Assembly: GCF_000011385.1 (NCBI RefSeq)
Contig: NC_005125.1
Coordinates: forward strand, 1,860,001 to 1,924,000
Direction of reading: 5' to 3'
DNA length: 64,000 bases
Origin: Gloeobacter violaceus PCC 7421
Lineage (GTDB): Bacteria > Cyanobacteriota > Cyanobacteriia > Gloeobacterales > Gloeobacteraceae
Position 1 is the first letter of the stretch, and each line of letters opens with the position of its first letter. Under the pieces are notes generated by a model that saw only the letters and a list, made by a program, of their open reading frames with translations, made no database searches and had not been told where the DNA came from. Shown here in pieces: positions 26,929 through 47,988 of this stretch. The position numbers and the translations under genes are program-made.

Positions 26929-26991
26929 TATTCGGCTCTACACTGAATAAGTAGAAATGACCACGGACGGAGCTTGGGAGGCGCGCAGGCT

Positions 26992-28746
26992 ATGCAGCAG
27001 ACGATCCAAAAAAGGTTGACGGTCCAGTCCGGAGCGGTGGCACCTGAGACGGTGGCGATGCGCTGCCTCGACTGGGATCGCGACCGCTTCGACATCGAAT
27101 TTGGTCTGCAAAACGGCACGACCTACAACTCGTACCTGATCGAGGGCGAGCAGGTAGCCCTGGTGGATACCAGCCACGAAAAGTTCCGCTCCCTTTATTT
27201 AGATCTGCTCAAAGGCCACATCGATCCCAAGCGGATCGACTATCTGGTGATCAGCCACACCGAACCCGACCACAGCGGTCTGGTGGCGGACGTGCTGGCG
27301 CTCGCTCCCCAGGCGACGGTGGTCGCTTCGCGCATGGCGCTGCAGTTTCTGGCGAACATGGTGCACCGCCGCTTTCCGCAGCGGGCGGTCAAAAGCGGCG
27401 ACACCCTCGATCTCGGAGGCGGGCATGTGCTCGAATTTGTCTCGGCCCCCAACTTGCACTGGCCCGACACGATGTTCACGTTCGACCGGGGCACGGGGGT
27501 GCTCTACACCTGCGACGCTTTTGGGATGCACTACTGCAACGAGCGGATGTTCGATGAGGACTTGAGTGCCATCGAGCCCGATTACCGTTTTTATTACGAG
27601 TGCCTGATGGCTCCCAACGCCCGCTCGGTGCTCACCGCCCTCAAGCGCATGGAGCCTCTGGGGGAGATCACCGCCATTGCCACCGGCCACGGGCCGATGC
27701 TCAAGCTGCACCTGGGCGAGTTGGTCGATCGGTACCGGCGCTGGAGCCAGGAGCAGAGCGAGGCGACCACCAGCGTGGCAGTCTTCTATGTCTCGGACTA
27801 CGGCTACAGCGACCGGCTATCCCAGGCGATTGCCCAGGGAATCACCAAGTCCCACGTCGCCACCGAACTGGTGGACCTGCGCGCCACGCCCCTCGCCGAG
27901 ATCCAGGAAATCGTCCGCCAGAGCGCCGGGGTGGTGATTGGCACCCCCCCCACGGCGGGGCCGGCCGCCCAGGCGACCCAGGCGGCTTTGGGCGTGATTC
28001 TGGCCAACGTCAAAGAAAAGCAGGCTTTTGGCATCTACGAAGCCTGCGGTGGGTTCGACGAGCCCGCCTTTCCGCTTTCGAGCCGATTTGCCGATCTGGG
28101 CCTGGTGCGGGCCTTTGCCCCCATTCGCATCCCCGGGCGCGAAGGGGCGCTGGCCGAGGCCGAGGCGACCGGCACACCCACCCCGGCGCTGTACAAGCTC
28201 TGCGAAGAGTCCGGGACCGACCTGGCCCAATGGCTCACCCGCGACCGCACCGTCCAGCAGATGAAGGCGGTCGCGGTCGGGCTCGACAAGGCGATGGGCC
28301 GTCTGTCGGGCGGGCTGTACGTGCTCACCGCCGCCAAAGGCGAACTCAAAGGCGCCATGCTCGCCTCCTGGGTCAACCAGGCGAGCTTTGCCCCCCTGGG
28401 CGTCACGATCGCCGTCGCCAAGGACCGGGCCATCGAAGCGCTGATGCAGGTGGGCGACCTGTTTGCCCTCAATGTGCTCGAAGAAGGCAAGTACGCTCCG
28501 CTGATGCGCCACTTTCTGAAGCGCTTTGCCCCCGGCGAGGACCGCTTCGTGGGTGTGGAAACGCTCACCGGCACGGGCGGCACGCCAATTCTGGCCGATG
28601 CCCTCGCCTATATGGAGTGCCGGGTCGCCAGCCGCATGGAGTGTTCCGATCACTGGCTGGTCTACGGCGTGGTTGAGGATGGCCGCGTCTCCAACCTGGA
28701 AGGACTGACCGCCGTCCACCACCGCAAAGTCGGCAACCACTATTAA
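26992..28746 (+). CDS. Flavodiiron protein with intact iron ligands (Flv3-like)
   Basis: Reduces O2 to water with electrons from the photosynthetic chain, protecting photosystem I. About 584 residues with three domains: metallo-beta-lactamase-like (about 1-260), flavodoxin-like (about 265-405) and flavin-reductase (about 430-584). The diiron ligands are visible as HTEPDH, LHWPDTMF, TCDAFG, and GHGP. This full set corresponds to the Flv3/Flv4 class. GGGAGG at 26976-26981 supports ATG 26992 over the TTG at 26974. The partner gene follows 63 nt downstream; such proteins work as heterodimers in cyanobacteria. Confidence 0.92.
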   Translation: MQQTIQKRLTVQSGAVAPETVAMRCLDWDRDRFDIEFGLQNGTTYNSYLIEGEQVALVDTSHEKFRSLYLDLLKGHIDPKRIDYLVISHTEPDHSGLVADVLALAPQATVVASRMALQFLANMVHRRFPQRAVKSGDTLDLGGGHVLEFVSAPNLHWPDTMFTFDRGTGVLYTCDAFGMHYCNERMFDEDLSAIEPDYRFYYECLMAPNARSVLTALKRMEPLGEITAIATGHGPMLKLHLGELVDRYRRWSQEQSEATTSVAVFYVSDYGYSDRLSQAIAQGITKSHVATELVDLRATPLAEIQEIVRQSAGVVIGTPPTAGPAAQATQAALGVILANVKEKQAFGIYEACGGFDEPAFPLSSRFADLGLVRAFAPIRIPGREGALAEAEATGTPTPALYKLCEESGTDLAQWLTRDRTVQQMKAVAVGLDKAMGRLSGGLYVLTAAKGELKGAMLASWVNQASFAPLGVTIAVAKDRAIEALMQVGDLFALNVLEEGKYAPLMRHFLKRFAPGEDRFVGVETLTGTGGTPILADALAYMECRVASRMECSDHWLVYGVVEDGRVSNLEGLTAVHHRKVGNHY

Positions 28747-28809: not shown

Positions 28810-30549
28810 ATGACCCCTGCCCAAACGCCTGTGCGCGATATCCAGACGGTGGCGGTGGCCCCCGATACTTGGGCGCTGCGCTCCCGCAGCTTCGTGCGGC
28901 TCAAATTCGAGGTCGAGTACGCCCGGCAGCGGGGCACCACCTCCAACGCCTTTCTGTTTCAGGGGCCGGATCGAACGGTGCTGCTCTCCCCGCCGGGCGA
29001 AACGTTCACTGCCCTGTTTCTTGCGGAGTTGGAGCGGCTCATTGCCCTGGAGCAGATCCACGCGGTAGTGCTGGGTCACATCAACCCCAACCGCGCCAAA
29101 ACCCTGATTGCCCTGCTGGCGCGCGCTCCCCGCCTGGAGATAATCTGCTCCAACCCCGGGGCCATCGCCCTTAGACCTTTGCTTGAAGGTGAAGCGGCCG
29201 ACCTGCAAACGCAAATCCGGATCGTCCGCGGCCAAGAAGTCCTGGAACTGGGCGGCGATCGGCGGCTGCAGTGCATTCCCGCTCCGACGCCGCGCTGGCC
29301 CGACGGGCTGTGCCTCTTTGATCAAAAGCACTCGGCACTTTACACCGACAAATTTTTTGCCGCCCACGTCGCGGACGATGCCCTCTTCGACGAGAGCGGC
29401 ACCGCCACGGGCGAGGACGCCCGTTACTTTTATGATTGTCTGATGGCAAGCCAGGCGCGCCAGGTCGAAGCGGTGCTCGACCGGCTTGCCGAGTGGCCCG
29501 CCCGGGTGATTGCCCCGGTGCACGGACCGCTGTTGCGCTCGGGCGGGCTGGATCTTATCTCCCATTACCGCCGCTGGAACCGCGCTCAGATTGAAAAGAC
29601 GCTCACCGTCGCCTTGCTCTACGCCTCGGCCTACGGCTCCACCGCCACCCTCGCCCAGGCGCTTGCCCACGGGATCACCAAGGCCGGGGTGGGTGTGGAG
29701 ACCATCAACTGCGAATTCGCCACCCCGGAGGAGATCCGCGAGGTGGTCTCGCGCGCCGACGGCTTTGTGATCGGCTCGCCCACCCTGGGCGGTCACGCCC
29801 CCACCCAGATCCAGACGGCCCTGGGCATTGTGCTTGCCACCGCTCCCAAATCGCAACTGACCGGGGTATTCGGCTCCTTCGGCTGGAGCGGCGAAGCGAT
29901 CGACCTGCTGGAGGGCAAACTGCGCAACGCTGGATATTCCTTCGGCTTCGAGACTATTCGCGTCAAGTTCAAACCCAACGCCGGCACCTTGCAGGAGTGC
30001 GAGGAGGCGGGCACCGATTTTGCCCAGACGCTCAAGAAGACGCGCAAAGCCCGTCAGGGTCGCGCTCCTGCCGCCTCCACCCCCGTCGAGCAAGCCGCGG
30101 GCCGCATCGTCGGTTCGCTGTGTGTCGTCACGGCCCGGCGTGAAGAGGTCAGCAGTGCGATGCTCGCCTCCTGGGTCACCCAGGCCACCTTCAATCCGCC
30201 GGGGCTCACCGTGGCCGTCGCCAAGGAGCGGGCCATCGAGTCGCTGCTGTACCCGGGTGACGCCTTCGTGCTCAATATCCTTGAAGACGGGCAGCACCTG
30301 CCTTTGATGAAGCACTTTCTCAAACCCTTCGCTCCTGGCCAGGACCGTTTTGCGGGGGTTGCCACGCGCGCGGCGGCCAACGGCTCGCCCATCCTCTCAG
30401 AAGCGCTCGCCTACCTCGAATGCCGTGTGGAGGGGCGCATGGACTGCGGCGATCACTGGCTGGTCTACTGCGTGGCCGAGGGGGGAGATGTGCTCAACCC
30501 GAACGGCAAGACGGCCGTGCACTTTCGCTCGACCGGTACGCACTACTGA
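28810..30549 (+). CDS. Flavodiiron protein with degenerate iron site (Flv1-like)
   Basis: 579 residues with the same three-domain layout. The diiron motif is changed: HINPNR in place of HxExDH, PRWPDG in place of the His-containing segment, and FDQKHSALYTDKF where the bridging Asp region is expected. This loss marks the Flv1/Flv2 class, whose subunits pair with an intact Flv3/Flv4 partner. The flavodoxin domain (ALLYASAYGSTATLAQALAHG) and C-terminal flavin reductase are complete. A GAGGAGAAG site precedes the ATG. The stop overlaps the convergent peptidase remnant by 7 bp. Confidence 0.92.
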   Translation: MTPAQTPVRDIQTVAVAPDTWALRSRSFVRLKFEVEYARQRGTTSNAFLFQGPDRTVLLSPPGETFTALFLAELERLIALEQIHAVVLGHINPNRAKTLIALLARAPRLEIICSNPGAIALRPLLEGEAADLQTQIRIVRGQEVLELGGDRRLQCIPAPTPRWPDGLCLFDQKHSALYTDKFFAAHVADDALFDESGTATGEDARYFYDCLMASQARQVEAVLDRLAEWPARVIAPVHGPLLRSGGLDLISHYRRWNRAQIEKTLTVALLYASAYGSTATLAQALAHGITKAGVGVETINCEFATPEEIREVVSRADGFVIGSPTLGGHAPTQIQTALGIVLATAPKSQLTGVFGSFGWSGEAIDLLEGKLRNAGYSFGFETIRVKFKPNAGTLQECEEAGTDFAQTLKKTRKARQGRAPAASTPVEQAAGRIVGSLCVVTARREEVSSAMLASWVTQATFNPPGLTVAVAKERAIESLLYPGDAFVLNILEDGQHLPLMKHFLKPFAPGQDRFAGVATRAAANGSPILSEALAYLECRVEGRMDCGDHWLVYCVAEGGDVLNPNGKTAVHFRSTGTHY

Positions 30550-31011: not shown

Positions 31012-31302
31012 ATTAGACATGCCAGCTAGTAGTACCATGACTAATATTAAAGAGTACTAGATGGAATTGAGGAACCGATTTCCTGCATTCCTAAAACCAC
31101 GCCACCCTCTCCCGGGCGATCCAGTACTGGTTTTGTAAACAAACCGAATAGTCCCCTTCCGAAGCAACTTTCGGCACTTAACCGTTCTTGAAGATTAGGC
31201 AAATCGATTCGGCTCATGCGCCTGACCGAAGCGCGCTCGGGCAGGCACAATCCGGATTCGTATAGCTATCCACAATTCATCACTCTTGAGGTATGCATTT
31301 AT
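31012..31302. other. Non-coding stretch before IPT gene 1
   Basis: About 290 bp, AT-richer than average, with no supportable gene. It should contain the promoter of the downstream IPT/TIG gene; I could not assign -35/-10 boxes with confidence. Confidence 0.4.
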
Positions 31303-32700
31303 ATGTCACGCATATCAGGTTCTGCTGTGTTCCTGTCGGTTGCGCTTGCGACCGTTCAGCCTTTTGCATTGCCGCTTCTGAGTCAGGAGGCACTGGCTCA
31401 AACTACATCCGCAATCACCAGTTTTTCGCCCACCAGTGGCCCGATTGGGACAGCGGTGGTCATCAACGGCAGTGGTTTCAGCAACGTCAGTTCGGTCAAG
31501 GTGGGCGGGGGCAATGTCGGCTTTACCCGCAACTCCAGCACCCAGGTGACCGCCACCACTAACAGCAATGCCAAAACCGGTCCAATTTCGATTCAGACCA
31601 GCAACGGCTTGCTCACCAGCTCCAGCACCTTCACCGTTACAGTCAACAATCCGACTATTTCCAGTTTCTCGCCCATCAGCGGCCCGCCCGACACCAAGGT
31701 GGTCATCCAGGGCACCTACTTCAACAACGTCCAGTCCGTCAAAATCGGCAGCATCTATTTGAATTTCGTCCGCGACTCGGAGACGCAGCTCACCACCACC
31801 ACCAAAACAGGCAATGTCAGCGGCAAGGTAACCGTCACCACCACCGGAGGCTCCGCCGTCAGTTCGGCAAGCTTTACTAGTGATCCGCCGAGCATCACCA
31901 GCTTCACCCCGACCAACGGCACCGCCTATCCAGCCACCGACGTCACCATCAAGGGCATCAACCTGCTCAATATCACCAGCATCGGCTTCGGCAAAGGCTA
32001 TGCCGAGAACTGGCAATCCTCCAGCCACAAGGAAGTCAAGACCAAAATCCCCTGCACGGCGAGCACCGGCAAAATCGCCATCAACACCTACGCGGGTGTG
32101 ATCTCAAGCACCACCGACTTCAGCGTGCCCGACGCCGGTGTGCCGAGTGACGTGCCCCAGCGCATCGCCTGCGTCAAAGACCCCCGCACCCCCCCGGACG
32201 GTTTCACGGCCATCACCTATTGGGGACAGGCGATCGTCGATACCAGCAAAACTGGTGAAGCCATCGTCGAGATCGACTACATGAAGCTCTGGTGCACCAT
32301 CAACGGCACCGAGAAGCTCCTCGCCGACGACCAGGGCTCGATCGACGGCCAACTCTATGTGCGCTCCGGCTGGTACAGCATCCGCGAGACCGAGCCGATG
32401 CCTTACACCTACAACGCCGAGAATGACTCGGTCGTGCTGCCCATCTCCGACCATCCCGACAAAATCTTCCACTGGTACATGAGCACCCCCCGAGCTTCCT
32501 GGTCGCCGGACGAGACCGTCAGCAGCTGCCGCGTCGAGGGCCGCATGAAAATCAGTGGACCGGCCCTGGTGCAGTTGGGTGCCGACTGGTGGGTGGACGC
32601 CTACGCCCCCTGGAACGGCGCGCAGGTGAACAACCGCGAGATGGGTTATTCCAACTGGTATCTCGCATCGCCCGATTGGCAGGTTATCCGGATGCCCTGA
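31303..32700 (+). CDS. Exported IPT/TIG-repeat surface protein, paralogue 1
   Basis: 465 residues. Signal peptide about 1-30 (FLSVALATVQPFALPLL, ends near ALAQ). Three IPT/TIG Ig-like repeats follow, each starting with a pattern like SFSPTSGPIGTAVVINGSGF (also SSFSPISGPPDTKVVIQG and SFTPTNGTAYPATDVTIKG). The C-terminal ~190 residues form a domain I do not recognise: DAGVPSDVP, GFTAITYWGQAIVDTSK, KLWCTINGT, HWYMSTPRASW, SSCRVEGRMKISG, and ADWWVDAYAPWNG. It shares this domain with the gene at 46336-47988. Likely cell-surface or matrix protein linked with the polysaccharide locus. GAGG at 31287 supports ATG 31303. Confidence 0.75.
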   Translation: MSRISGSAVFLSVALATVQPFALPLLSQEALAQTTSAITSFSPTSGPIGTAVVINGSGFSNVSSVKVGGGNVGFTRNSSTQVTATTNSNAKTGPISIQTSNGLLTSSSTFTVTVNNPTISSFSPISGPPDTKVVIQGTYFNNVQSVKIGSIYLNFVRDSETQLTTTTKTGNVSGKVTVTTTGGSAVSSASFTSDPPSITSFTPTNGTAYPATDVTIKGINLLNITSIGFGKGYAENWQSSSHKEVKTKIPCTASTGKIAINTYAGVISSTTDFSVPDAGVPSDVPQRIACVKDPRTPPDGFTAITYWGQAIVDTSKTGEAIVEIDYMKLWCTINGTEKLLADDQGSIDGQLYVRSGWYSIRETEPMPYTYNAENDSVVLPISDHPDKIFHWYMSTPRASWSPDETVSSCRVEGRMKISGPALVQLGADWWVDAYAPWNGAQVNNREMGYSNWYLASPDWQVIRMP

Positions 32701-33024: not shown

Positions 33025-34095
33025 TTAGCCCGAGCTTTTCGCAGTAGCCAATCGCGAACTCAGCGCTCGAATCAAGAAATCTCTTGATGCCTGAACACGC
33101 CTGGTCAGGCGCTCCTGTACAGGCGCGTAATCAATATTACTGGTATTTGTCTTGTCACCGTCAAAAATGCGCTCGATCAGGCCCAGTTTGTTCAGTAAGT
33201 CGCCAGTTTTGGCGGCCTTTGTTTTGCAGACGAACACGTTGAAGGGCTTGTGGAAAATAATTGAGAATATCGAACCGTGGTAAGAGTCCGTAAAAACATA
33301 AGCCGCTTGTGAATAGTACCGTACCCACTCCTCAGGCCCAATACCAGCCAGGTTGTACTGTGCAATTCTGTGGTGGTAACCTACCGAGACAATTTTTAAA
33401 TTGCGTTCACCCGCCAGTCGAAGAATAAAACTCTCCTCTGAGCTACTCATCGGACCCATTTTATAAATCAGCAAAAAAGGGCTGTCGATGGCAAGCGCTT
33501 TGCCCAAAAACTCTCCATAACCGACCAAAAATGTTGGGTCAAGTACCTGGATCGAATCCAGGGCGCACTCTTCTTTGATCACGCGGGCTGTGTTTGCATC
33601 TCGGACTGAAATGGCCTGGAATTGACGCACCAGGCTTTGAACGTTACTGCGATGGGCACCCAGGGTCTCGGTGTGGCCTGCACTGGCTGCATAGCTGATT
33701 TTAAGCGTTGTTTCTCCGTCGATAAAATCCAGAAAAAATGACGGATCGTATCCGCGCCATCCGTCCGTGGACCAGACCTGGTCACTCCCGACGACAACGG
33801 CGTCGTAGCAACGTTTGAAGCGCTTGAGGCCTTCCGATGAAAAGTAGACCCCTTCACTGAGCTGGATGCGCGATTCTCTGAATTGCTTCATCTTGAGGAT
33901 CTTGGCAAGATTGCTCAATACGGGTCGGCTGGGCAAAAGCTCTCTGACATAATAGTTTTTCATCGCAACAAAAGGCTGGTAGTCGATGACCTCGGCTTTG
34001 AAGCCCAGGTTGTCGATGGTTTTCCAGAGCGCGTAGTTCTGAAGCGTTGCCCCATAGTTGCTAGTGTGATGAAACGAGAGAATTCCTACTTTCAT
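33025..34095 (-). CDS. Polysaccharide pyruvyl transferase family protein
   Basis: 356 residues. PS_pyruv_trans fold: GILSFHHTSNYGATLQNYALW at the N-terminus, VVVGSDQVWSTDGWRGYDPSFFLDFI, LDPTFLVGYGEFLG, and the C-terminal TDSYHGSIFSIIFHKPFNVF motif, which is the family's substrate/nucleotide segment. It transfers pyruvate from phosphoenolpyruvate as a ketal to sugars, adding negative charge to exopolysaccharide. It is the last recognisable gene of the polysaccharide locus. GGGAAG precedes the ATG. Confidence 0.85.
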   Translation of the reverse strand: MKVGILSFHHTSNYGATLQNYALWKTIDNLGFKAEVIDYQPFVAMKNYYVRELLPSRPVLSNLAKILKMKQFRESRIQLSEGVYFSSEGLKRFKRCYDAVVVGSDQVWSTDGWRGYDPSFFLDFIDGETTLKISYAASAGHTETLGAHRSNVQSLVRQFQAISVRDANTARVIKEECALDSIQVLDPTFLVGYGEFLGKALAIDSPFLLIYKMGPMSSSEESFILRLAGERNLKIVSVGYHHRIAQYNLAGIGPEEWVRYYSQAAYVFTDSYHGSIFSIIFHKPFNVFVCKTKAAKTGDLLNKLGLIERIFDGDKTNTSNIDYAPVQERLTRRVQASRDFLIRALSSRLATAKSSG

Positions 34096-34175
34096 TGTCG
34101 AGCTTCCCTGGCTAGTGTCCGACTTTAAGCTATGCTATCCAACCGATAGTACCATGTCAATTTAAAGGAGATAAC

Positions 34176-35015
34176 TTAGTCCACACTGATCACTTCTAAT
34201 TCAACCTTTTGCAGTGCCATCAAGTGCAAAATTTTGGTTATCGTAATCAAGGTCACTATCGGCGTGCTGCTTTTCGACTTGTTTAAAATCCAGTTGCTGG
34301 TTTTGCTGGAAAACCAGGCTTCACCGATACGCAATCCCCGCAGTCTGTCCATGATTGGATAACAAGCCGATTTAAAGACTGTGCCGCAATTGGGCAGAGT
34401 ATTGTCCTGGTGTTCTTTGGCCCACTGTCGACGTTCCTGCAGAGGGTTGGAAGCAAAATCCGCCGGGCTGAATTGCAGCACAGCGCTCAAGATCAATTTG
34501 CGGGTCATGCCGGTGAAGACAGTTTGGCGATAGCTTCTGGTAATCTGCTCGTTGGCGAGGGTCTTGACTTCGCCGTTTTCAAGAAACGTCACGCTTTCCA
34601 CAAAATCGTAAATGGTGCGGCTGTGAAGTTTGCCCCTACCGGCGTTCATTGCCAACGCTCCGCCAATCGAAGCGGGAACCGAAGCCAGATAGTAAAAGCT
34701 GTCAAAAGAATTTTGGCCGCAGTAGTTCAATACTTCGTTGATCTGCACGGTGGAAGATACCCGCAGGCGGTAGTCGGGAAGCGGTTCGAGGGTTTTGGGC
34801 AAGCTATTCTTGAGCACCAGCGAGCGCACCGACGAGCGAGTGAACAAAGTATTGGAGCCGTTTCCGAGGATATAGACCTTCGCTCCGTGCCGGTCTGCCC
34901 ACCGGCAGTAGTCCATAAATTCCTCGGCGCTTTTGAATTCTCCGTAACACTCAAATCGATGAGTGGTCCGAAAAGTGGAAAGTTGGTTCGATTCGACAGA
35001 AACAATACTCACCAC
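34176..35015 (-). CDS. MurB-like FAD-binding reductase in polysaccharide locus
   Basis: About 279 residues, starting at GTG 35015 behind AGGGAG. The FAD-binding PCMH-type domain shows KVYILGNGSNTLF and YLASVPASIGGALAMNAGRG, as in UDP-N-acetylenolpyruvoylglucosamine reductase, followed by a MurB C-terminal domain (LPNCGTVFKS). MurB normally has a serine in the GSFFKNP-type motif; here the segment reads NCGTVFKS, so the proton donor is altered to Thr or Cys. Being next to a pyruvyltransferase and inside an EPS locus, it is more likely a specialised paralogue than the cell-wall enzyme; an enolpyruvyl-sugar to lactyl-sugar role is an inference. Confidence 0.8.
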   Translation of the reverse strand: MVSIVSVESNQLSTFRTTHRFECYGEFKSAEEFMDYCRWADRHGAKVYILGNGSNTLFTRSSVRSLVLKNSLPKTLEPLPDYRLRVSSTVQINEVLNYCGQNSFDSFYYLASVPASIGGALAMNAGRGKLHSRTIYDFVESVTFLENGEVKTLANEQITRSYRQTVFTGMTRKLILSAVLQFSPADFASNPLQERRQWAKEHQDNTLPNCGTVFKSACYPIMDRLRGLRIGEAWFSSKTSNWILNKSKSSTPIVTLITITKILHLMALQKVELEVISVD

Positions 35016-35050
35016 AGTTACTCCCTGAAGCAAGAACGCGACCTATACGA

Positions 35051-36517
35051 TCAAGACGCTTTGCTGCCCGCCGCTTTGGGCAACAATTCGCGGGCGTAGG
35101 CAAACGCCCGCTCAAAGAGCGAAGGAGCGCCCCAGCGCAACGCGAGCAGATAAACACCAGCGCCCACGGCAATGGAGAGTACAAGTAACGACAAGGGATC
35201 GAGCCGCTCGACAAGCAACTGCCGGGTTACCCAGATGGCCGATACCATCGCCAACGAGCTCATCAAGGGAGGAATGAACTGTCTCAAGTACACGTCAAGC
35301 TCAATGCGGATGAGGCGGTCCACCGCCCAGACGGCCACCGGCGTGAGCAGGTAGACCCGCAGTGTGTAGGCGGCGGCGACCGCCACAATCCCCCAATGAA
35401 CAGCGAAGGCGAAGGCGACCAGACCGCAGACAGCGTTGAGCAAATTGATCCCAAGACGCCAGGCAGGCTTGCCCATCGCCACGAGCACCGTCGAGTTGAA
35501 AAAGAGGACCGATTGCTGAAGGCCCAGCAGTGCCAGGATCTGCAGCACCGGCACACTTGCTTCCCATTGGCCGCCGAAGACGACTGCCACCAGTTCCGGC
35601 GCTAAGGCCGCTACCCCCAGAAATGCCGGGAAGGAGACCAGGCTGGTGAACTGCGTAACGGTGTAAAAGGCGGAACGCAGGCGCTCCGGCTGCTGCTGCA
35701 GTTGGGAGAACGTGGGCATCGCCACCTGGGTGGTGGTTGTCGTCAACAGCATGGTCATCACCGTCAGGATGCGCATGGCGATGCTGTAGTAACCCAGTGC
35801 GACCGGTCCGAGAAAGTAACCGATCAAAAAATCGACGGCGCGGCGGTTGAAAAAATTCGACAGGTTGAAACCGGTCACGTTGATCCCGAAGCCGAACAGC
35901 TCGCGCAAGTGCGCTTTGCTGATCTGCAACCCCGGCCGCCAGGGGCTGGCAAACCAGAGGATCGCCAGCCCAATCGCCTGATTAACGAGTTGCTGACCGA
36001 CGAGGCTCCACACCCCAAAGCCGCCAAGGGCCATGGCCAGGCCCACCGCCCCCCCCGCCAAGGTGGCGACAAGCTGGCGGGCGGCAAGGGCGCGAAAGGC
36101 GAACTCGCGGGTAAGGACCGCCTGCTGAACGGCGCTCAGCGAACCGATGAGAAAACTGGGGGCAAGCCAGGCAATGATCGCTCCAAGACGCGGCTCACCG
36201 AAAAGGGCTGCCACCGGTCCACTGACTGCGACGCCGAGCAACGTCAGCACCAGCCCGATGGCCGCGTTCGTCCAGAAGGCGGTATCGAGATGGGAACGGT
36301 CGAGCCCAGGGCGCTGGATAATCGCTTCGGTGAACCCTTGCTCCTGGAAAACCTGGACAAAAGCCACAAAGACACTGGCGAGTGCCACCAGCCCGAAAGT
36401 CTCAGGCCCCAGTACTCTGGCCAGAACCAGATAGACCAGCAGGGAAAGGAACTGGCTGCCGAAATTTTGAACGGCAGACCAGCCTACCCCCTTGATTGCT
36501 TTGTGACGCAGGTTCAT
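35051..36517 (-). CDS. Polysaccharide flippase, Wzx/MOP family (copy 1)
   Basis: 488 residues, about fourteen predicted membrane helices, no large soluble domain. The N-terminus NLRHKAIKGVGWSAVQNFGSQFLSLLVYLVLARVLGPETFGLVAL and the following FQEQGFTEAIIQR are typical of the PST/Wzx branch of the MOP superfamily. It moves lipid-linked oligosaccharide repeat units across the inner membrane. A second flippase lies at 49887-51380 in the same locus. It is between the MurB-like gene and the nucleotidyltransferase, same strand. Confidence 0.85.
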   Translation of the reverse strand: MNLRHKAIKGVGWSAVQNFGSQFLSLLVYLVLARVLGPETFGLVALASVFVAFVQVFQEQGFTEAIIQRPGLDRSHLDTAFWTNAAIGLVLTLLGVAVSGPVAALFGEPRLGAIIAWLAPSFLIGSLSAVQQAVLTREFAFRALAARQLVATLAGGAVGLAMALGGFGVWSLVGQQLVNQAIGLAILWFASPWRPGLQISKAHLRELFGFGINVTGFNLSNFFNRRAVDFLIGYFLGPVALGYYSIAMRILTVMTMLLTTTTTQVAMPTFSQLQQQPERLRSAFYTVTQFTSLVSFPAFLGVAALAPELVAVVFGGQWEASVPVLQILALLGLQQSVLFFNSTVLVAMGKPAWRLGINLLNAVCGLVAFAFAVHWGIVAVAAAYTLRVYLLTPVAVWAVDRLIRIELDVYLRQFIPPLMSSLAMVSAIWVTRQLLVERLDPLSLLVLSIAVGAGVYLLALRWGAPSLFERAFAYARELLPKAAGSKAS

Positions 36518-38494: not shown

Positions 38495-40000
38495 TCACGG
38501 CAACGACAGACGGGTAATGGAGTAAGGCGGCAGATCCAGCTTGCCCGCGAAGCGGCCCTGGTTGTGGTTCAACGAGGCGCTGTCGCTCACCAGGGTCAGC
38601 GGTGCACCCGAAAGCTGCTCGAATCGGCCGTTGGCCAAAGCGGCGGGCAGGGCCAGCGGCTGTGCGCCCGCCGAAAGATTCAACAAAACAGCCTCCCGGC
38701 GGGGGCCGTCGCCAAAACTCCACGCCGCCACCGCCGAATAGGCGAATCCCCCACGCCCCTGCAGGGTGGGTGAGCCTGGAGCAGTCCACCTTTGGACATC
38801 GGTCATTCCCCGCAGGGCATCTCCGACCAGCTGCAGCGCCCGGCCGCTTGCGCTTAAGGCGAAAGGCACCGTCGCGGGCGCTTCGGTGGGACTGGTAAAG
38901 CCTGCCAGCCGAAAACCGCGCTCACTGCTGAAGACACTCGCAAACAGAGCGTTGCCGATGAGGGCATGGCACTGGATGAGGGTGATTTTTGGATCCTCGG
39001 TGAACAACAAGGTCGCCGCGGCCAGACCCAAGCCGTGCATCCAGGTGCCGGGGAGCGGCTGCCCCTGGTCGAAGAGGTTGTACTCGGTGATCCAGACTTC
39101 CCGGTCGGGTTCGACCAGCGCCAAGCCGTTTTGTTGCAATTTCGACCAGGCCAAAAAGGGCATTCCCAGCACCACGGCCACCTCGGATGGAGAGTAGCGC
39201 ACCGGCAACGCCTCGCGCGAGGGCTTGAACTGGGTATCACCGATTCCGCTGCTGTAATAGTGGTGGATCGTCACCGCATCGGCGCTCCGCAACCGCGGGA
39301 GCAACTCGCGGTTCCACCCTGTCCAGCGCGGGTCGGAGGCTTGTTCCGGAACGACGGAGGCGCCCACCGCAGCCACCTTTGCTTTGGGAAAGGCCCGGTG
39401 GATGGCGGCACTCCAGCGGTTGGCTTCCAGGGCGTAGTCCCTGGCGGAGGGAAAGGCGGCTTTGTGATCGCGCTGACCGATGTAGTACTCGTTGCCCAGC
39501 TCCACGTGCGTAACCGGCATGCCCAGTCCTTCGGCGCGGCGCAGCATCGCCAGTTGCTCTTCGAGGGTGGAGGTGAGCATATTGACCACGAACAGCGGTT
39601 TGGCTCCTGCCGCTTTGAGTGCCGGCCGGATATCTTCCAGGCGGTTGGTGTCGACTTTCGGCCGGATCCCGCGGTAGCTCGGCGGCAGGTCGGCGCCGGC
39701 GGCAAACCAGCCTTTGCGCCAGTCCCAGTAGTTGGCTTCCGTCCCGGCCGGGTAGCGCAGCGTCGAGGGCCGCAGCAAAGCGAGCGTCTGCAAAAACTGA
39801 GGTGTCGTCCAATCGACGCGGTAGAGCAAATTGGCGCCGTTGTACCCGAAATAGTCGGCCGCCAACGCCCGCGGGCGGCCCACGGCCTGCAGGGAGGACA
39901 ACTCCGCGGCGGCCCCGGCCGCCGGATACAGCACCGACCAGAGCGCCACAAGCGCGGCCGCCGCGCGGGAGGGCACCCGCACACCCGATTCCCTCAACAA
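38495..40000 (-). CDS. Exported glycoside-hydrolase-like protein of the polysaccharide locus
   Basis: About 501 residues with an N-terminal signal region ([20 protein letters not shown]). The catalytic-type beta/alpha barrel shows [45 protein letters not shown] with the probable acid/base Glu, [12 protein letters not shown], and [11 protein letters not shown] with the probable nucleophile Glu. The C-terminal ~130 residues are a beta-sandwich. It resembles clan GH-A enzymes such as alpha-L-arabinofuranosidase/GH39-like proteins, here probably an EPS-processing glycosidase, as similar genes do in other EPS loci. Start is TTG, overlapping the acetyltransferase stop, with AGGAAG before it. Confidence 0.7.
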
Positions 40001-40509
40001 TTGACTTCCTTTTTGCTCACGTCCCTGGCCGGATTGCCTACCATCACAGCCCCTTCGGGCACGTCCTCGAGCACCACCGCCCCGGCACCGATCTTGGCGT
40101 TGTCCCCGATGGCAAGACCGCCGACGCGGTGCTCTCGGGAGATGATCAAGGCCCCGGCACCGAGCAGCACATCGTCCCCGACCACGATATTCGGTCCACC
40201 GAGGGTGACATTCTGGAGAATCACGCAGCGGCTGCCGATCACGGTGTCCGGGTTGACTATCAGACCGCGGGCGTGCGCCAGAAACAAGCCCGGCCCGATC
40301 TTCACCCGCGGCCCGATCCACACGCCGTGCAAAAAGTCGTTGAGACGCACCGTCAGGTAGGCGACGGGCTTGAGGCGGTGCCGGTAGCACCAGCTTGAGA
40401 ACCGGTAAAGCACCACGGCCGTGAACATCGGGTAGTACAAAAAACTCAGCCATGAACCGCCATGGTGTTGGCGAAAGACTTTGATATCTTCTGTCAAGTT
40501 TTCAAACAT
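39994..40509 (-). CDS. Hexapeptide-repeat O-acetyltransferase (CysE-like)
   Basis: 171 residues. The N-terminal helical part is followed by left-handed beta-helix repeats: VWIGPRVKIGPGLFLAHARGLIV, DTVIGSRCVILQNVTLGG, VVGDDVLLGAGALIIS, IGDNAKIGAGAVVLEDVPEGAVMVGNPARDV. The architecture is that of serine acetyltransferase-like enzymes, but in an EPS locus it most likely acetylates a sugar using acetyl-CoA. It overlaps the start of the glycosidase-like gene. Confidence 0.82.
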   Translation of the reverse strand: MFENLTEDIKVFRQHHGGSWLSFLYYPMFTAVVLYRFSSWCYRHRLKPVAYLTVRLNDFLHGVWIGPRVKIGPGLFLAHARGLIVNPDTVIGSRCVILQNVTLGGPNIVVGDDVLLGAGALIISREHRVGGLAIGDNAKIGAGAVVLEDVPEGAVMVGNPARDVSKKEVNC

Positions 40510-40572: not shown

Positions 40573-41733
40573 TCAAGAAGGGGTTTTGACACCGGCCCGC
40601 TCCTCGGCGGAAAAGACCGGTTGGACTGCGCCCACTCGGCGGGCCGCCAAAGCGCGGTAGGCGTCGGCCACCGCATCCCAGTCGTAGAACTGTTCGATGC
40701 GCCGACGCAAAGCCTGGGTGCGATCCGGCGATTGCACCGCTCGACGCAAGTCCGCAGCCAGCCTCGTTACGGTGAAGTATTCGCCGTCCTCGCCGAGCGC
40801 TTCGCGGCTGAAGGGGGTGTCGATGGCGAGCACCCGCGGGCAGGACTGCATCGCTTCGAGTAAGGCCGGGTTGGTGCCGCCCACCGAATTGCCGTGGATG
40901 TACACCGCGCAGTGGCGGCGCAGCACCGTCAACACCTGCGCGTCGTACTCCGCGCTGCACACCTGCACGCTCGCACCTGCCTGGGAGGCCAGGCGTTTGA
41001 GTTCGAGGCCGTAGGCCGTGTCGTGGGCGTAGCCGACGACCAGATGCTTGTAACCTTGGGCGGCGAGCCCGGAATCGACAAAGGCACCGGCCGCCTCGGC
41101 GGGCAGATTGTCCGGCTCGATGCGGGTGATCTGCAAAGAGAATTTTCCAGCCTCGACGCCGTATTGCCGGAGAATCTCGGCGGTACGGGAGGCGGAGACC
41201 TCCGGCAGCCGGGGAACACCGTACGGAATGAACACCGAAGTGGCCCCGAAGCGCCTTCTGTAGTAGAGATTCAGCTCTCTGGAGTCAGAAATCAGGTCGC
41301 ATAACCTCGCGATCACGGCGGAAGCGAGAAAGTAGTAGAGCTTGAACGGAGCCGACCATTTGGGCCGCCGCCATTCGAGACCGTCGGTGTTGATGCTCAT
41401 TGGAATGCCGCTCAGCAGGGTGATCAAAATTCCCGGAAGGTTGGCGTTGTTGAACCAAAAGACATAGTCGTAGCGGCCGCGGTTGGCCAACAAGAACAAA
41501 CCGGTCTGAATGGAGGAGATGAATGTGTCGAGGCTTTTTTTGCGGGCACCCGCGACGTAAATTAATCGGCGCCCCTCGCAGTGCTCGAGCTTCTGGGGAT
41601 ACATGCGCGCCCGGCAAAAGACTTCACACTCGACCCCGCCGGCGGTCAATCGGGCCGTAATTTCCTGTACCGCAGTCTCAAAGCCGCCGTACTTCGCGGG
41701 AAGCCCGCGCGTCCCACAAAAGGCAATGCGCAT
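40573..41733 (-). CDS. Glycosyltransferase with DUF1972 N-terminus
   Basis: 386 residues. The start IAFCGTRGLPAKYGGFETAVQEI is the hallmark of the DUF1972 rhamnosyltransferase-type GT family. A GT4-like C-terminal half has YIHGNSVGGTNPALLEAMQ, the usual nucleotide-sugar-binding Glu segment. GT-B fold, cytoplasmic face. The ATG at 41733 follows CTCACTGGAGATAACC, giving a GGAG site; the longer frame to 41964 is rejected. Confidence 0.88.
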   Translation of the reverse strand: MRIAFCGTRGLPAKYGGFETAVQEITARLTAGGVECEVFCRARMYPQKLEHCEGRRLIYVAGARKKSLDTFISSIQTGLFLLANRGRYDYVFWFNNANLPGILITLLSGIPMSINTDGLEWRRPKWSAPFKLYYFLASAVIARLCDLISDSRELNLYYRRRFGATSVFIPYGVPRLPEVSASRTAEILRQYGVEAGKFSLQITRIEPDNLPAEAAGAFVDSGLAAQGYKHLVVGYAHDTAYGLELKRLASQAGASVQVCSAEYDAQVLTVLRRHCAVYIHGNSVGGTNPALLEAMQSCPRVLAIDTPFSREALGEDGEYFTVTRLAADLRRAVQSPDRTQALRRRIEQFYDWDAVADAYRALAARRVGAVQPVFSAEERAGVKTPS

Positions 41734-41789
41734 GGTTATCTCCAGTGAGGAATACAAGTAGCGGTTATGGGTTTGCTCAAGGCGGGCTG

Positions 41790-43010
41790 CTAAAGCACCT
41801 TGGCGTAGATGTCGAGAATTTGCTCGTAATGGCGCTCCTGGCTGAATAGCCTTTCGATCTTTTTGCGACCGGCCAGGCCCATGGACAGGGTTTGCTCCCG
41901 GTTGCGCAGGGCAGTAAGCAACCGGTCGCGCAAGGCTTCGACATCGCCTGCTGGAAACAACCACCCATCGGTTTCGGGGTCTACCAACTCCGGGATGCCG
42001 CCGATGTCCGCCCCGATCACCGGCCTGCTAAAGGCATAGGCCTCCAGCACCGACATCGGACAATTTTCGTACCACTCCGAAGGCAGGATGCAGGCGCGGC
42101 TGCCTCCGATGAGCTGTTGCAATTCCTCGCCGCGCTTGGGTCCCAATAGCCGAATGTGGGAAAGCCCACGCCGCTCCACCAGTGCCTGCGCCTCCGCCCG
42201 CGCCTCCCCGTCACCGACAATCAAAAGTGGCGTGTCCTTCAGGGGGGCTGCCGCTTCGATGAGTGTGAAGATCCCCTTGAGCCGCTCCACGCGACCAAAG
42301 TAGAGAAAATACTCTCCCTGGACTGGATTGACGGCAATTTGCGAGACATCGACAAAGTTGTGCACAGTGCTCATTTTTTGGGCGGGCACGCCGAGTTCGG
42401 CGAGTTTGCGGCGCTGGAAGTGGCTGACCGTAATGAAGCGGTCGATGTGGTCGACAACTCCGCCGAGCAGACGGGCGTAGTACGCCTCGGCGGCACTGAG
42501 CAGCGAACGGGCGAGCGAGCCGCGGTTGCAGCGGCCGGCGACCGCCCGCCAGTAGTCTTTGCCGCTGCACGCCTGGCAAAGCTGTCCTTGGGCGTCGATG
42601 AGCGTGGAGACCGGGCAAGCCAGGCGGTACTCATGCAACGTCTGGACCGCCGGGATGCCCGCGCGGCGCAGGATCGGCAAAATCGCGGTGGTGAGTTGTC
42701 CGTAGTAAATGTGCAAATGGGCGATGTGGGGGCGGTGTTCGGCAAGCAGGCGGGCGAGAGCCCGGGCAGCGGGTCGAGAGTAAAGGAAATGCACGAGGTC
42801 GGCCGGGGAAGGGGAACTGAAATTAACCGCCGTCGGAAAGTAGCGCGCCCAGGGTGTGGGGAGGTTTTCGGGCTGACTGGCGGCAAAGGGGATGACCGAA
42901 TGGCCCTTCTTCTCGAGCAACGCGGCCAGCGAGAAGAAATAGCGATCGGAGCCGCCGCGGATAAAGTAGTTTTGCGAGACCTTCAGCACAGTGGACGGCA
43001 CGGCTGGCAC
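41790..43010 (-). CDS. Glycosyltransferase family 4 protein
   Basis: 406 residues, GT-B fold. N-terminal acceptor domain has VSQNYFIRGGSDRYFFSLAALLEKKGHSVIPF. The Cys-containing middle (ACPVSTLIDAQGQLCQACSGKDYW) resembles a subset of GT4 enzymes with a small inserted zinc-like loop. The C-terminal donor domain has YFGRVERLKGIFTLIEAAA, LLGPKRGEELQQLIGG and SEWYENCPMSVLEAYAFSRPVIG with the conserved EX7E. It probably adds one sugar of the repeat unit. It lies 56 bp upstream of the DUF1972 transferase. Confidence 0.88.
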   Translation of the reverse strand: MPAVPSTVLKVSQNYFIRGGSDRYFFSLAALLEKKGHSVIPFAASQPENLPTPWARYFPTAVNFSSPSPADLVHFLYSRPAARALARLLAEHRPHIAHLHIYYGQLTTAILPILRRAGIPAVQTLHEYRLACPVSTLIDAQGQLCQACSGKDYWRAVAGRCNRGSLARSLLSAAEAYYARLLGGVVDHIDRFITVSHFQRRKLAELGVPAQKMSTVHNFVDVSQIAVNPVQGEYFLYFGRVERLKGIFTLIEAAAPLKDTPLLIVGDGEARAEAQALVERRGLSHIRLLGPKRGEELQQLIGGSRACILPSEWYENCPMSVLEAYAFSRPVIGADIGGIPELVDPETDGWLFPAGDVEALRDRLLTALRNREQTLSMGLAGRKKIERLFSQERHYEQILDIYAKVL

Positions 43011-45023: not shown

Positions 45024-46082
45024 TTAGGACATGTGAAGTTGCGCTTCATCCAGCACTTGGCCCCGATTGCGAACTTCGGTTTCCACTTCCCTTCGCCACA
45101 TATCAAAGGGTTTACCATCCCAATGTTTGTAGGGAATAAAATTCAGGATCAACGCCCATCGCGGATTCTGATTGTAGCCACCCTGATGAGCAATCAACTG
45201 ATTTGATAACGTTAGCATGCCTGCTTGACCAAGTATCGGCTTGCTGCGTTGCCCGCTATAAAAAAGAACCATGTCTCCAAACTTGTCGGAGCGAGTGTAT
45301 TTTTCGTGACTCCAGCGCAAGGTCTTCCACCGCACGTACAACAAATTAACCAACTTGCGCACGACATGCCGATGGGAACAAGGAATAACATGGTAAGGAC
45401 CATCCTCCAGTCCAACGACGTCATTCAGGTAGACAAATGCTTTGTAGCGCAATGTCAAGCCATCGGTGTGTAACCGCCTCTTGGTGGTACTGTCGGGCAT
45501 ATCCAGCTGAATGACGGCACTCTGCGCCACCAGACGGTCGCCGGTTCGCTCCTCGAGCATCCGCTGCACTGTGGTTAACAGCTGCGAAAAGCGCGGGTCC
45601 AGCTTCTGAACATTGATAAACTGGACAATACCAAGATTAATGTCTCGAATTTCAGACCGATAATTGACATAGCACTTGCCCCCGTCTTCATCGTCAGTTC
45701 GATAGTTTTGGGCGGGGATAATGCAGCTTTCACCACTCATATACTTTTTGGCAAAATCAATGATTTTGCTGCAGTCTTGGCGGCCAAGAAAAGCAGGAAA
45801 AACCTCGTAACCTTTGCGGGTGAATGTATTGATTGGCTGGCGGTAGATATCGAAAGCGGACACAAGAATTTCAGAGCTCATGCGGAAATAATTGCGTAAG
45901 TAATTAGCCAACTTTTGCAATTTGTGCATTGTTCGACTCGACAGATTGTGGAAGGTTATGCTGGGCATTTGCCCTCGCAGGTAAGATACTGAATTGTATT
46001 TGCTTGCGTTTTGCCCCGCTTGGGGGAAATTTTCCGCACTTTCGTTTATTCTACGGTAGATTTTCCGAGAGGTAGAACTCAT
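45024..46082 (-). CDS. Phytanoyl-CoA dioxygenase (PhyH) family Fe(II)/2-oxoglutarate oxygenase
   Basis: About 352 residues from ATG 46082 (the open frame reaches 46112). The double-stranded beta-helix core shows RRLHTDGLTLRYKAFVYLNDV, carrying the HxD iron ligands; YHVIPCSHRH; and ISNQL-like LIAHQGGYNQNPRWALILNF with the distal His and the Arg that holds 2-oxoglutarate. The N-terminal ~110 residues are not recognised and the exact start is uncertain. In a surface-glycan locus it may hydroxylate a sugar, lipid or protein precursor; the substrate is unknown. Confidence 0.75.
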   Translation of the reverse strand: MSSTSRKIYRRINESAENFPQAGQNASKYNSVSYLRGQMPSITFHNLSSRTMHKLQKLANYLRNYFRMSSEILVSAFDIYRQPINTFTRKGYEVFPAFLGRQDCSKIIDFAKKYMSGESCIIPAQNYRTDDEDGGKCYVNYRSEIRDINLGIVQFINVQKLDPRFSQLLTTVQRMLEERTGDRLVAQSAVIQLDMPDSTTKRRLHTDGLTLRYKAFVYLNDVVGLEDGPYHVIPCSHRHVVRKLVNLLYVRWKTLRWSHEKYTRSDKFGDMVLFYSGQRSKPILGQAGMLTLSNQLIAHQGGYNQNPRWALILNFIPYKHWDGKPFDMWRREVETEVRNRGQVLDEAQLHMS

Positions 46083-46335
46083 TATCTCGGATTCTCTAAA
46101 GAACAATGTCAATATTTTTGTAATAATACTTATTGATTAATTCAGTCGAACATTGATTAATAAAGACATGATCAATGTAGACAAACAATAATATTTTCTT
46201 TTCTGCTTTCCCTTCCTACTGAAAGCCTAAGATTCGGTTTTAGGCTTATCGATTATGCGTAAATGTGTTCAGGCTTTGTAGCTGTTCGCGTTCTTGCCAA
46301 GAGTTTGTCGAATCAACAGAATTTCCGGAGAATTT
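46083..46335. other. Divergent intergenic region with repeats
   Basis: AT-rich, with two divergent promoters expected (PhyH gene on minus, IPT gene 2 on plus). I see a direct repeat ATTGATTAAT (46132-46141 and 46152-46161), an inverted repeat CATTGAT/ATCAATG (46151-46157 and 46171-46177), and AAGCCTAA/TTAGGCTT (46223-46230 and 46240-46247). These are candidate regulatory sites or the leader of the IPT gene. Confidence 0.4.
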
Positions 46336-47988
46336 ATGCGCCTCAAGTTAGCGTTTGTTTGTGGATTTTCAGCGCTTTTTGCATTAAATCCTGTGCAGTT
46401 GCCAGAGCACTTCATGGGTTTGGTTATAGATCAGCCTTCTGCCTGGGCGGCCTCGTCGCCGACCGTGAGCAGCTTCTCACCGACCAGTGGCGGACCTGGC
46501 ACTCAAGTCACCATCAACGGCAGCAACTTCGACGGTCTCGAAAATATCAACTTCAACGGTGCCTACGCAGCCTATATCTGGGTGTCTTCCAGCCAACTGA
46601 AGGCGACGGTTCCATCGGGGGCAACCACTGGTAAAATCCAAGTCAAAACAACTGTCGGTTCCGCCAGTAGCTCCAGTCAATTTACGGTGCCTGAGGTGAT
46701 CAGCAGTTTCTCGCCATCCAGCGGTCCAGTCGGAACTTCGGTGACCATCAACGGCAGCGGATTCAGCAATAGCGTCAGTTCTGTTAAATTCGGAGACGGC
46801 TACGTCAGTTTCGTGCGCGAATCTGCGGGAAAGATTCAAGCAACGACCAATACCAGTGCCTCCACCGGCAAGATCATCATCAACAATGGAGGCACCCTGA
46901 TCAGCAGTTCCGGAACTTTTACAGTGACCACACTCCAACCGAGAGTGGATAGCTTCACGCCGACCAACGGGCCACCGGGTACTAAAGTCGTCATCAAGGG
47001 TGCAAATTTTATCAACGTGAACTCTGTTCAAATCGGCAGCATCTACCTTGCCTTCACGGTAGATTCTGAAACCCAGATCACGGCCACCACCAAAACCGGC
47101 AACGTGAGCGGGAAGATTACAGTCACCACCCTGGACAACGGTTCGGCCAGCAGTGCGGGCAGTTTCACCAGTGATCCGCCCAAGATCACGAGCTTTTCTC
47201 CCATGAGCGGCTCGGCTTATCCTGTGACCACTGTCACGATTAACGGCCTCAACCTGGTCGGGATCAGCGGCGTTTCCTTTGATGGCGCCCCAACCAGTTA
47301 CCGGATCCTCTCCGACAAGAAGTTGGAGGCTGAAGTCCCCTGCCCGGCCCGCACCGGGACGATCTCCGTCAAAACCTTCGCCGGGACCATTTACAGCACC
47401 TCCAACTTTGGGGTGCAAGACGCCGGGGTTCCCGAAGACATCCCGACTCCGATCGCCTGCCTGGTCACTCCCACCACTCCTCCGCCGGGCTTCACCGCCG
47501 CGACCTACTGGGCGGTGGCCCTCGTCGACACGGCCAAATCGGGCACCGGTTCGGTCGAGGTGGCCTACACCCAACTGTGGTGCACCATCGACGGGGTCGA
47601 TACCAAACTGGCGGACGACGTGGGTACGCTGTTCGGGGGGCTTTTCTCCCGCGACACCTGGGATGGCGCCCCCGTATCCACCCCGATGCCCTGGACGTAC
47701 AACCCCACCAACAATTCGGCCATCGTCTATCCTTCCGAGAACCCGGATTTGTTTTACCACTGGTACATGCCTACACCCCGCGCCTCCTGGCCCTCCGATG
47801 CTTCGGTCACCAGCTGCCGGGTCAAGACTCGGGTGAAAATTTCTGGTTCGGCGCTGTTGCAGATGGGCGGGGACTGGTGGTTGAACTCGACCGCCGCCTG
47901 GAACGGCGAACAGGTCAACAACCGGGCCATGGGCAACACCAACTGGTACTTCCCGAACGGGGAATGGCAGGACATTACGTTCCCCTAA
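46336..47988 (+). CDS. Exported IPT/TIG-repeat surface protein, paralogue 2
   Basis: 550 residues. Signal peptide at the start (LAFVCGFSALFALNPVQL). Four IPT/TIG repeats (SSFSPTSGGPGTQVTINGSNF, then three similar starts) are followed by the same unrecognised ~190-residue C-terminal domain as the 31303-32700 product: DAGVPEDIP, GFTAATYWAVALVDTAK, QLWCTIDGV, HWYMPTPRASW, TSCRVKTRVKISG, GDWWLNSTAAWNGEQVNNRAMG. Three cysteines of this domain are conserved. The one extra IPT repeat is the main difference. GGAG precedes ATG 46336. It is the only plus-strand gene inside the polysaccharide region. Confidence 0.78.
   Translation: MRLKLAFVCGFSALFALNPVQLPEHFMGLVIDQPSAWAASSPTVSSFSPTSGGPGTQVTINGSNFDGLENINFNGAYAAYIWVSSSQLKATVPSGATTGKIQVKTTVGSASSSSQFTVPEVISSFSPSSGPVGTSVTINGSGFSNSVSSVKFGDGYVSFVRESAGKIQATTNTSASTGKIIINNGGTLISSSGTFTVTTLQPRVDSFTPTNGPPGTKVVIKGANFINVNSVQIGSIYLAFTVDSETQITATTKTGNVSGKITVTTLDNGSASSAGSFTSDPPKITSFSPMSGSAYPVTTVTINGLNLVGISGVSFDGAPTSYRILSDKKLEAEVPCPARTGTISVKTFAGTIYSTSNFGVQDAGVPEDIPTPIACLVTPTTPPPGFTAATYWAVALVDTAKSGTGSVEVAYTQLWCTIDGVDTKLADDVGTLFGGLFSRDTWDGAPVSTPMPWTYNPTNNSAIVYPSENPDLFYHWYMPTPRASWPSDASVTSCRVKTRVKISGSALLQMGGDWWLNSTAAWNGEQVNNRAMGNTNWYFPNGEWQDITFP

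Follow-up and report, generated by a model that had tools for sequence, protein, structure and literature searches.

Pairing of a MurB-like flavoenzyme with a PS_pyruv_trans protein in an exopolysaccharide locus of Gloeobacter violaceus suggests a two-step route to lactyl ethers

In peptidoglycan synthesis, the flavoenzyme MurB reduces the enolpyruvyl ether carried by UDP-N-acetylglucosamine (UDP-GlcNAc) to a lactyl ether. A second kind of pyruvyl transfer to sugars is that of the PS_pyruv_trans family (PF04230), whose members of known function, CsaB and Pvg1, form pyruvate ketals (PMC10435577). In a review of pyruvylation, enolpyruvylation (by MurA and NikO) and ketal formation are treated in separate sections (PMC6801904). 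Here, a locus of Gloeobacter violaceus PCC 7421 is described in which elements of both systems stand together. The window analysed is a stretch of 64,000 nucleotides (contig NC_005125.1, positions 1,860,001 to 1,924,000) of a genome of 4,659,019 bases in one contig, and it carries a gene for a MurB-like flavoenzyme next to a PS_pyruv_trans gene. As the first-pass annotation of the window had reported, both genes are present in an exopolysaccharide (EPS) locus, and they lie on the minus strand 80 bp apart:

34176-35015, minus strand: MurB-like flavoenzyme, 279 aa from a GTG start, or 285 aa from a TTG at 35033
34368-34391, minus strand: codons for NCGTVFKS in the flavoenzyme, with Thr218 (285-aa numbering) in the column of E. 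coli MurB Ser229
34096-34175, minus strand: intergenic gap of the pair, 80 bp
33025-34095, minus strand: PS_pyruv_trans (PF04230) protein, 356 aa, Pfam score 134.4 bits against a cut-off of 25.3
33274-33291, minus strand: codons for TDSYHG in the transferase; its His falls in the column of CsaB H308, and the position two before it is not Arg

The pair is probably a two-step cassette acting on an EPS sugar. In the first step, the PS_pyruv_trans protein would move the enolpyruvyl group of phosphoenolpyruvate (PEP) onto one sugar hydroxyl, and would stop at the enolpyruvyl ether without the closure to a pyruvate ketal that occurs with CsaB. In the second step, the MurB-like flavoenzyme, in which the catalytic Arg-Ser/Thr-Glu positions are kept, would reduce this ether to a 1-carboxyethyl (lactyl) ether, the precedent being the action of MurB on UDP-GlcNAc-enolpyruvate.

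The pairing recurs in cyanobacteria. Among 388 sampled genomes of the cyanobacterial class, 16 hold 18 members of the MurB-like subfamily (profile A3, E <= 1e-40), and a transferase gene is directly adjacent, in either gene order, to 17 of the 18, one of the 17 being a fragment at a contig end. Direct adjacency at this frequency indicates that the pairing exceeds chance. A scan of genome contigs with two narrow peptide patterns yielded four further loci, all four with the transferase next door and one in reversed order with overlapping genes; the 18 members include the two copies of the G. violaceus genome and apparently three of these four loci. When 146 genomes of the phylum were searched with the window protein, close relatives were found only in its own genome (two) and in one other, the remaining matches being 20-31% identical.

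Pairs of the same kind are found outside cyanobacteria. In the haloarchaeon Natrinema pellirubrum the MurB-like and transferase genes overlap by 17 bp, in Novosphingobium they overlap by 4 bp, and a further pair is present in a Cetobacterium plasmid record; in Paracoccus aestuarii, the two are fused in one protein of 845 aa with PF04230, FAD_binding_4 and MurB_C domains. A plasmid search with the MurB-like protein returned 28 records, and among the nine opened, three were transferase-linked (one of them the fusion), one was MurA-linked in a polysaccharide locus, one lay in a wall cluster, three were solitary, and one lay beside a carbamoyltransferase gene. Six further records were opened from a second plasmid search (51 records), of which one was transferase-linked, two were MurA-linked, two lay in wall clusters and one was without annotation. 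No match to the Cetobacterium pair was found by blastn of E. coli genomes. The recurrence of the pairing in other bacteria and in an archaeon suggests that the two proteins together put lactyl ethers on surface sugars.

Other settings of MurB-like genes were encountered in the same searches. MurA-MurB paralogue pairs lie in plasmid polysaccharide loci of Haematobacter (L042:4539-6882) and Agrobacterium sp. MA01 (L072:5923-8283), and a plasmid pair of Qingshengfaniella (L073:4658-6927) lies beside one glycosyltransferase; such accessory pairs are possibly a parallel route to a lactyl ether or to muramic acid. On Burkholderia cenocepacia plasmid pBCJ2315 (L044:5052-6765), the MurB-like gene overlaps the carbamoyltransferase gene and is followed by a NUDIX hydrolase, with no polysaccharide genes annotated in the 12.7 kb shown. 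A phage collection contains 22 records similar to the Natrinema MurB-like protein, and the ten of these that were listed are unannotated 'Bacteriophage sp.' entries from faecal samples, which may be bacterial DNA. Another capsule-linked MurB is found in Vibrio parahaemolyticus K31, where a serotype-specific marker gene is named murB (PMC8443796).

The transferase class is also paired with other flavin reductases. Plasmid relatives of the window transferase number 106 records, of which 50 were listed; 14 loci were sampled (12 from the list and two already opened), and the 36 listed but unopened rows comprise 33 from Sinorhizobium and one each from Lactiplantibacillus plantarum, Paracoccus yeei and an unannotated Phocaeicola. 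In 13 of the 14 loci, a flavin reductase is fused to the transferase or lies at most two genes away, a call made from record annotation in four of the 13 (L092, L094, L095 and L096) and by Pfam scan in the other nine. The reductase is FrhB-like in seven loci (Sinorhizobium meliloti pSymB, Klebsiella aerogenes, Pseudobutyrivibrio, Marinibacterium, Bacteroides, L. plantarum LZ227 and P. yeei), a nitroreductase in four (L. plantarum TMW 1.1623, an E. coli plasmid, P. alcaliphilus and Gemmobacter) and MurB-like in two (Cetobacterium and Novosphingobium). By Pfam, the transferase is fused to a nitroreductase in P. alcaliphilus and Gemmobacter and to FrhB in Marinibacterium, such that, with the Paracoccus aestuarii protein, fusions exist to each of the three flavoenzyme families, whose folds are unrelated. 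Among E. coli genomes searched by blastn, the nitroreductase pair occurs in three of 5,426, on plasmids only, and the Klebsiella aerogenes FrhB pair had no match. No flavin reductase is present among the annotated neighbours of E. coli WcaK.

The residues of the transferase set it apart from the ketal-forming members of PF04230. Assignment of the window transferase as a CsaB was rejected on its score with model TIGR03609 (16.1 bits against a cut-off of 213.1), and the third PF04230 protein of the genome is a CsaB by the same model (380.5 bits). Within 2.5 kb of this CsaB gene, no neighbour was recognised as MurB-like, FrhB-like or a nitroreductase. An alignment of 34 PF04230 proteins was made, with 31 flavin-reductase-linked rows and with WcaK and the G. 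violaceus CsaB as ketal-type references. In CsaB, mutation showed that Arg148 and His308 matter for PEP, and Arg306 is a docking contact in both CsaB and Pvg1 (PMC10435577). The equivalents of Arg148 and His308 are R165 and H273 in the window transferase and are present in all 31 reductase-linked rows. The Arg306 equivalent is Arg in WcaK and in the G. violaceus CsaB, Ser in the window protein, and Arg in none of the 31. Conversely, a GSDxxW motif is found in 30 of the 31, the P. yeei protein having Leu instead of Trp. A Ruminococcus transferase without a nearby reductase has GSDxxW and lacks the Arg, like the reductase-linked rows.

A survey of PF04230 in 60 cyanobacterial genomes gave 93 rows, from which 88 proteins were typed (three were not recovered, one was merged and one was missed), with neighbours sought within about 1.5-2.5 kb by profiles built from the examples of this analysis. 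Five of the 88 are of the GSDxxW class, each with a MurB-like gene as neighbour; these five are not independent, because all are from one order. For the other 83, a MurB-like neighbour was found in no case and a nitroreductase neighbour in two. The Arg two residues before the His is present in 75 of the 88 and absent from 13. Arg-type proteins beside a 398-aa nitroreductase-family protein were seen at L154:2291-4605 (same strand) and L162:1329-3930 (divergent).

One alternative is that the transferase forms a standard pyruvate ketal and the MurB-like protein catalyses a redox reaction of its own on a different sugar of the polymer, the two being neighbours only through their shared role in EPS decoration. 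The ketals formed by CsaB and Pvg1, and the retention of the Arg148 and His308 equivalents, are in keeping with this, but the direct adjacency of 17 of the 18 cyanobacterial members in both gene orders, the fusions with three kinds of flavoenzyme and the absence of the Arg before the His all make it unlikely. Klebsiella capsules also argue against a ketal, as some have a pyruvyltransferase gene and yet no pyruvate. In an analysis of 79 Klebsiella cps loci, 46 types lack pyruvate, yet four of them (K8, K22, K37 and K66) possess a gene for pyruvyl addition; among all 79 loci there are two genes for nitroreductases and one for a coenzyme F420 hydrogenase (PMC4616057). For K22, the title of the structure paper names a glycan with 4-O-[(S)-1-carboxyethyl]-D-glucuronic acid (cited in PMC7246685, PMC3857182 and PMC13123978), and K22 and K37 differ by acetylation (PMC13123978, PMC5359410). 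Of the first-pass suggestion that the locus may make lactyl-ether or pyruvate-modified sugars, the lactyl ether is retained as the best-supported reading, in place of the either/or.

Alternatively, the PF04230 protein could be a glycosyltransferase or a transferase of another group, with the flavoenzyme reducing a different intermediate such as an unsaturated sugar. The predicted fold of the transferase is like that of GT-B proteins (predicted local distance difference test score, pLDDT, 79), its best structural matches are UDP-GlcNAc 2-epimerases and glycosyltransferases, and no known product of the transferase class was found. A search of PDB sequences gave no relative, the three matches all being Rap1A with E > 0.1, and Pvg1 was absent among the 50 rows listed in each of two fold searches, which tells nothing either way. 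Against this proposal stand the retained PEP residues, the MurB-type partner, which indicates enolpyruvyl chemistry, and the MurA-MurB paralogue pairs, with their genuine homologue of enolpyruvyl transferase, in two alphaproteobacterial polysaccharide loci, with a third beside a glycosyltransferase. Such an alternative is accordingly considered improbable.

The MurB-like protein is a member of the MurB superfamily. FAD_binding_4 (PF01565) is matched at 47.1 bits (cut-off 26.4) and MurB_C (PF02873) at 20.7 bits, under its cut-off of 27. A profile search of the PDB gave nine matches, all MurB, and the 14 best structural matches of its predicted structure, a poor model with a pLDDT of 54, are likewise MurBs. 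E. coli MurB was aligned with 35 housekeeping rows, 19 cyanobacterial subfamily rows and four other transferase-linked rows. The columns of Arg159 and Glu325, catalytic residues of E. coli MurB alongside Ser229 (named in the title of PDB entry 1uxy), are invariant in the 23 transferase-linked proteins; the Ser229 column is Ser in all 35 housekeeping rows, and Ser in 17 and Thr in six of the 23 (13 and six, respectively, of the 19 cyanobacterial rows). In the window protein these positions are R169, T218 and E280. The first-pass annotation had described a changed proton-donor region; the Thr in the Ser229 column bears this out, but the change is a modest one, with NCG-x-VF otherwise that of an ordinary MurB.

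Other columns differ. Lys217, Asn233, Lys275, Gln288 and Arg327 of E. coli MurB are presumed here to contact UDP-GlcNAc, although this list is not fully reliable, and position 213, another presumed contact, turned out to be Met in the E. coli protein. In the housekeeping rows, these columns hold Lys (15/35), Asn (32/35), Lys (30/35), His (35/35, at Gln288) and Lys or Arg (31/35), respectively. In the subfamily, the Asn233 column is Asn in one of 19 rows, Gln288 is Thr in 18 and Arg327 is Ile in all 19; the window protein has K206, S222, R232, T245 and I282 at the five columns. Retention of the catalytic columns together with change at several substrate-contact columns points to the same chemistry on another substrate, and MurB chemistry on a different substrate is the simplest reading of the protein, to the extent that the list of presumed contacts can be trusted.

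In a tree of 62 MurB rows, the 19 cyanobacterial rows join the Cetobacterium and Natrinema proteins (support 100/95), away from the housekeeping MurBs, with a possible long-branch join flagged by the tree program for the Cetobacterium row. The Novosphingobium protein and the MurB part of the Paracoccus aestuarii fusion fall outside the cyanobacterial clade on long branches, and a single origin of the pair is thus not supported by the tree.

The gene inventory of the genome separates the pair from wall synthesis, as the first-pass annotation had claimed. There are three MurB_C matches: the window protein, a second copy and a proper murB. The last passes both MurB models of NCBIfam (NF010480, 287.1 bits, cut-off 259; TIGR00179, 239.6 bits, cut-off 144.5), such that the window gene is not the only murB of the genome, and the window protein is under both (116.8 bits, E 8e-34, and 83.9 bits, respectively). 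The second copy is 72% identical to the window protein and directly adjoins another PS_pyruv_trans gene, and two of the three PF04230 genes of the genome partner the two MurB-like genes. A MurA-like partner, which had also been suggested as something to look for, was not found to spare: the genome has two genes of the EPSP-synthase family (PF00275), one MurA and one AroA, both outside the locus, and a dedicated MurA partner hidden elsewhere in the genome was rejected on this basis. PF04230 is the only Pfam domain of the window transferase, with no PF00275 domain. The partner of the reductase is best read as the neighbouring PS_pyruv_trans protein itself, and not a MurA homologue. The pair stands apart from wall synthesis, and its two members stay linked in distant lineages and also occur fused.

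A role as a spare MurB in peptidoglycan synthesis, which superfamily membership and the kept catalytic positions would allow, was rejected as highly improbable given the proper murB of the same genome, the changed columns of Asn233, Gln288 and Arg327, and the pair of the same kind in a haloarchaeon, haloarchaea having no peptidoglycan. A reverse order, whereby the flavoenzyme acts first to yield a reduced three-carbon donor and the PF04230 protein then transfers an intact lactyl group, is very unlikely, since MurB chemistry is known on a sugar ether and not on free PEP and we know of no precedent; the alternating gene order gives no hint in its regard.

Several observations weigh against the two-step cassette. 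Among the cyanobacterial members, the eighteenth has no transferase in the 8.8 kb upstream, its contig ending 590 bp downstream (another contig of that genome carries a similar transferase as a C-terminal fragment), and many of the cyanobacterial copies are closely related to each other. The Ruminococcus albus member of the transferase class has no reductase within 4.5 kb, and the two Arg-type cyanobacterial proteins that adjoin a nitroreductase are outside the GSDxxW class, making the class motif an imperfect guide to reductase pairing. In the motif alignment, ketal-type references number only two (WcaK and the G. violaceus CsaB), and K328 and R207, important in CsaB, could not be placed confidently. 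With regard to the reductase, the structure model is poor, and the Natrinema and Novosphingobium proteins match FAD_binding_4 and not MurB_C in Pfam, their kinship coming from tblastn. Some presumed contacts also remain in the subfamily, where the Lys217 column is Lys in 19 of 19 rows and the Lys275 column is partly kept (Lys in six, Arg in seven). Lastly, K8 is among the Klebsiella types that have the gene without pyruvate, yet we know of no lactyl ether for K8.

The surroundings of the pair are, by their predicted products, those of an EPS locus, with the flippase gene immediately upstream of the pair:

35051-36517, minus strand: MOP/Wzx-type flippase, Polysacc_synt_3 301 bits
36539-37522, minus strand: sugar nucleotidyltransferase, NTP_transferase 172 bits
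37569-38459, minus strand: RmlA, glucose-1-phosphate thymidylyltransferase, TIGR01207 485 bits (cut-off 361)
39994-40509, minus strand: hexapeptide acetyltransferase (EpsC-like), Hexapep 51.6 bits, NF041874 115 bits (under the cut-off of 150)
40573-41964, minus strand: glycosyltransferase with DUF1972 (rhamnosyltransferase-like), NF046071 127 bits (under the cut-off of 500)
49225-49884, minus strand: initiating sugar-phosphate transferase (Bac_transf), 223 bits
53849-55879, minus strand: Wzc-like chain-length/autokinase protein, CbiA and AAA_31 above cut-off, GNVR slightly under
56929-58305, minus strand: UDP-glucose/GDP-mannose dehydrogenase, three Pfam domains above cut-off

Because a UDP-sugar dehydrogenase is encoded in the same locus, a uronic acid is a possible acceptor sugar. 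Two long open frames of the locus (38495-39985 and 45024-46112, both minus strand) have no Pfam match at E 0.1. On the opposite strand, the gene block of the pair is flanked by secreted-looking proteins at 31216-32700 and 46294-47988 (plus strand), which are alike by eye; the first, scanned with Pfam, has IPT/TIG repeats. Large secreted-looking proteins, similar by eye, are encoded near both copies of the pair in the genome (43017-44954, minus strand, and L077:3522-5495, minus strand), which suggests that the similarity of the two loci extends beyond the pair. Further away, adjacent proteins at 26974-28746 and 28810-30549 (plus strand) resemble, by eye only, tandem flavodiiron proteins.

Lactyl ethers have been reported from several surface polysaccharides. 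In the EPS of Nostoc commune DRH-1, 3-lactyl-glucuronic acid is found, lactyl ethers are reported from Nostoc and Vibrio EPS (PMC5983295), and they occur in O-antigens (PMC10609480). In the open literature searched, outside which most subscription journals lie, no paper assigning lactyl-ether biosynthesis was found, nor any that attributes lactyl ethers to the joint action of a PS_pyruv_trans protein and a flavin reductase. The reductase family perhaps sets the (R) or (S) form of the lactyl group; with a MurB-like partner the R form is expected, whereas the lactyl group of K22 is S. The K37 and K66 capsules likewise carry a lactyl ether. A broader proposition, that the GSDxxW class is a second enolpyruvyl transferase unrelated to MurA, for which MurB-like, FrhB-like and nitroreductase proteins have each been recruited as the reductase in a general lactyl-ether route for surface polysaccharides of bacteria and archaea, is about evenly balanced between being right and wrong. 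If it is true, many genes that now carry a pyruvate-ketal transferase label would instead encode the opening step of lactyl-ether synthesis, gene pairs could be used to predict capsule structures, and the logic of MurA and MurB would have arisen a second time from different components.

We propose that the module is a variant of this MurA-MurB logic in which the transferase is a different one and the flavoenzymes can replace one another; the genetic evidence for it is strong and the chemistry is deduced. The window pair would share with MurA-MurB the transfer of an enolpyruvyl group followed by flavin reduction to a lactyl ether, and it shares the reductase superfamily and its catalytic positions; it differs in its transferase, a PF04230 protein with a GT-B-like model where MurA is of the EPSP-synthase family, in its setting in an EPS locus, and in several of the presumed substrate-contact columns. 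With CsaB and WcaK the window transferase has in common the PF04230 family and the Arg148 and His308 equivalents, but it fails the CsaB model, lacks the Arg before the His, has GSDxxW and is paired with a flavin reductase. The accessory MurA-MurB pairs of Haematobacter, Agrobacterium sp. MA01 and Qingshengfaniella resemble it in having a MurB paralogue outside the wall cluster next to an enolpyruvyl transferase, and two of the three lie in polysaccharide loci; their partner, however, is a MurA homologue, and their MurBs form a separate clade and keep the Lys275, His288 and Lys/Arg327 columns in three of three. In the case of the pairs with an FrhB-like protein or a nitroreductase, the transferase class is the same and a flavin reductase is again adjacent or fused, the difference being that the reductase is of a family other than MurB.

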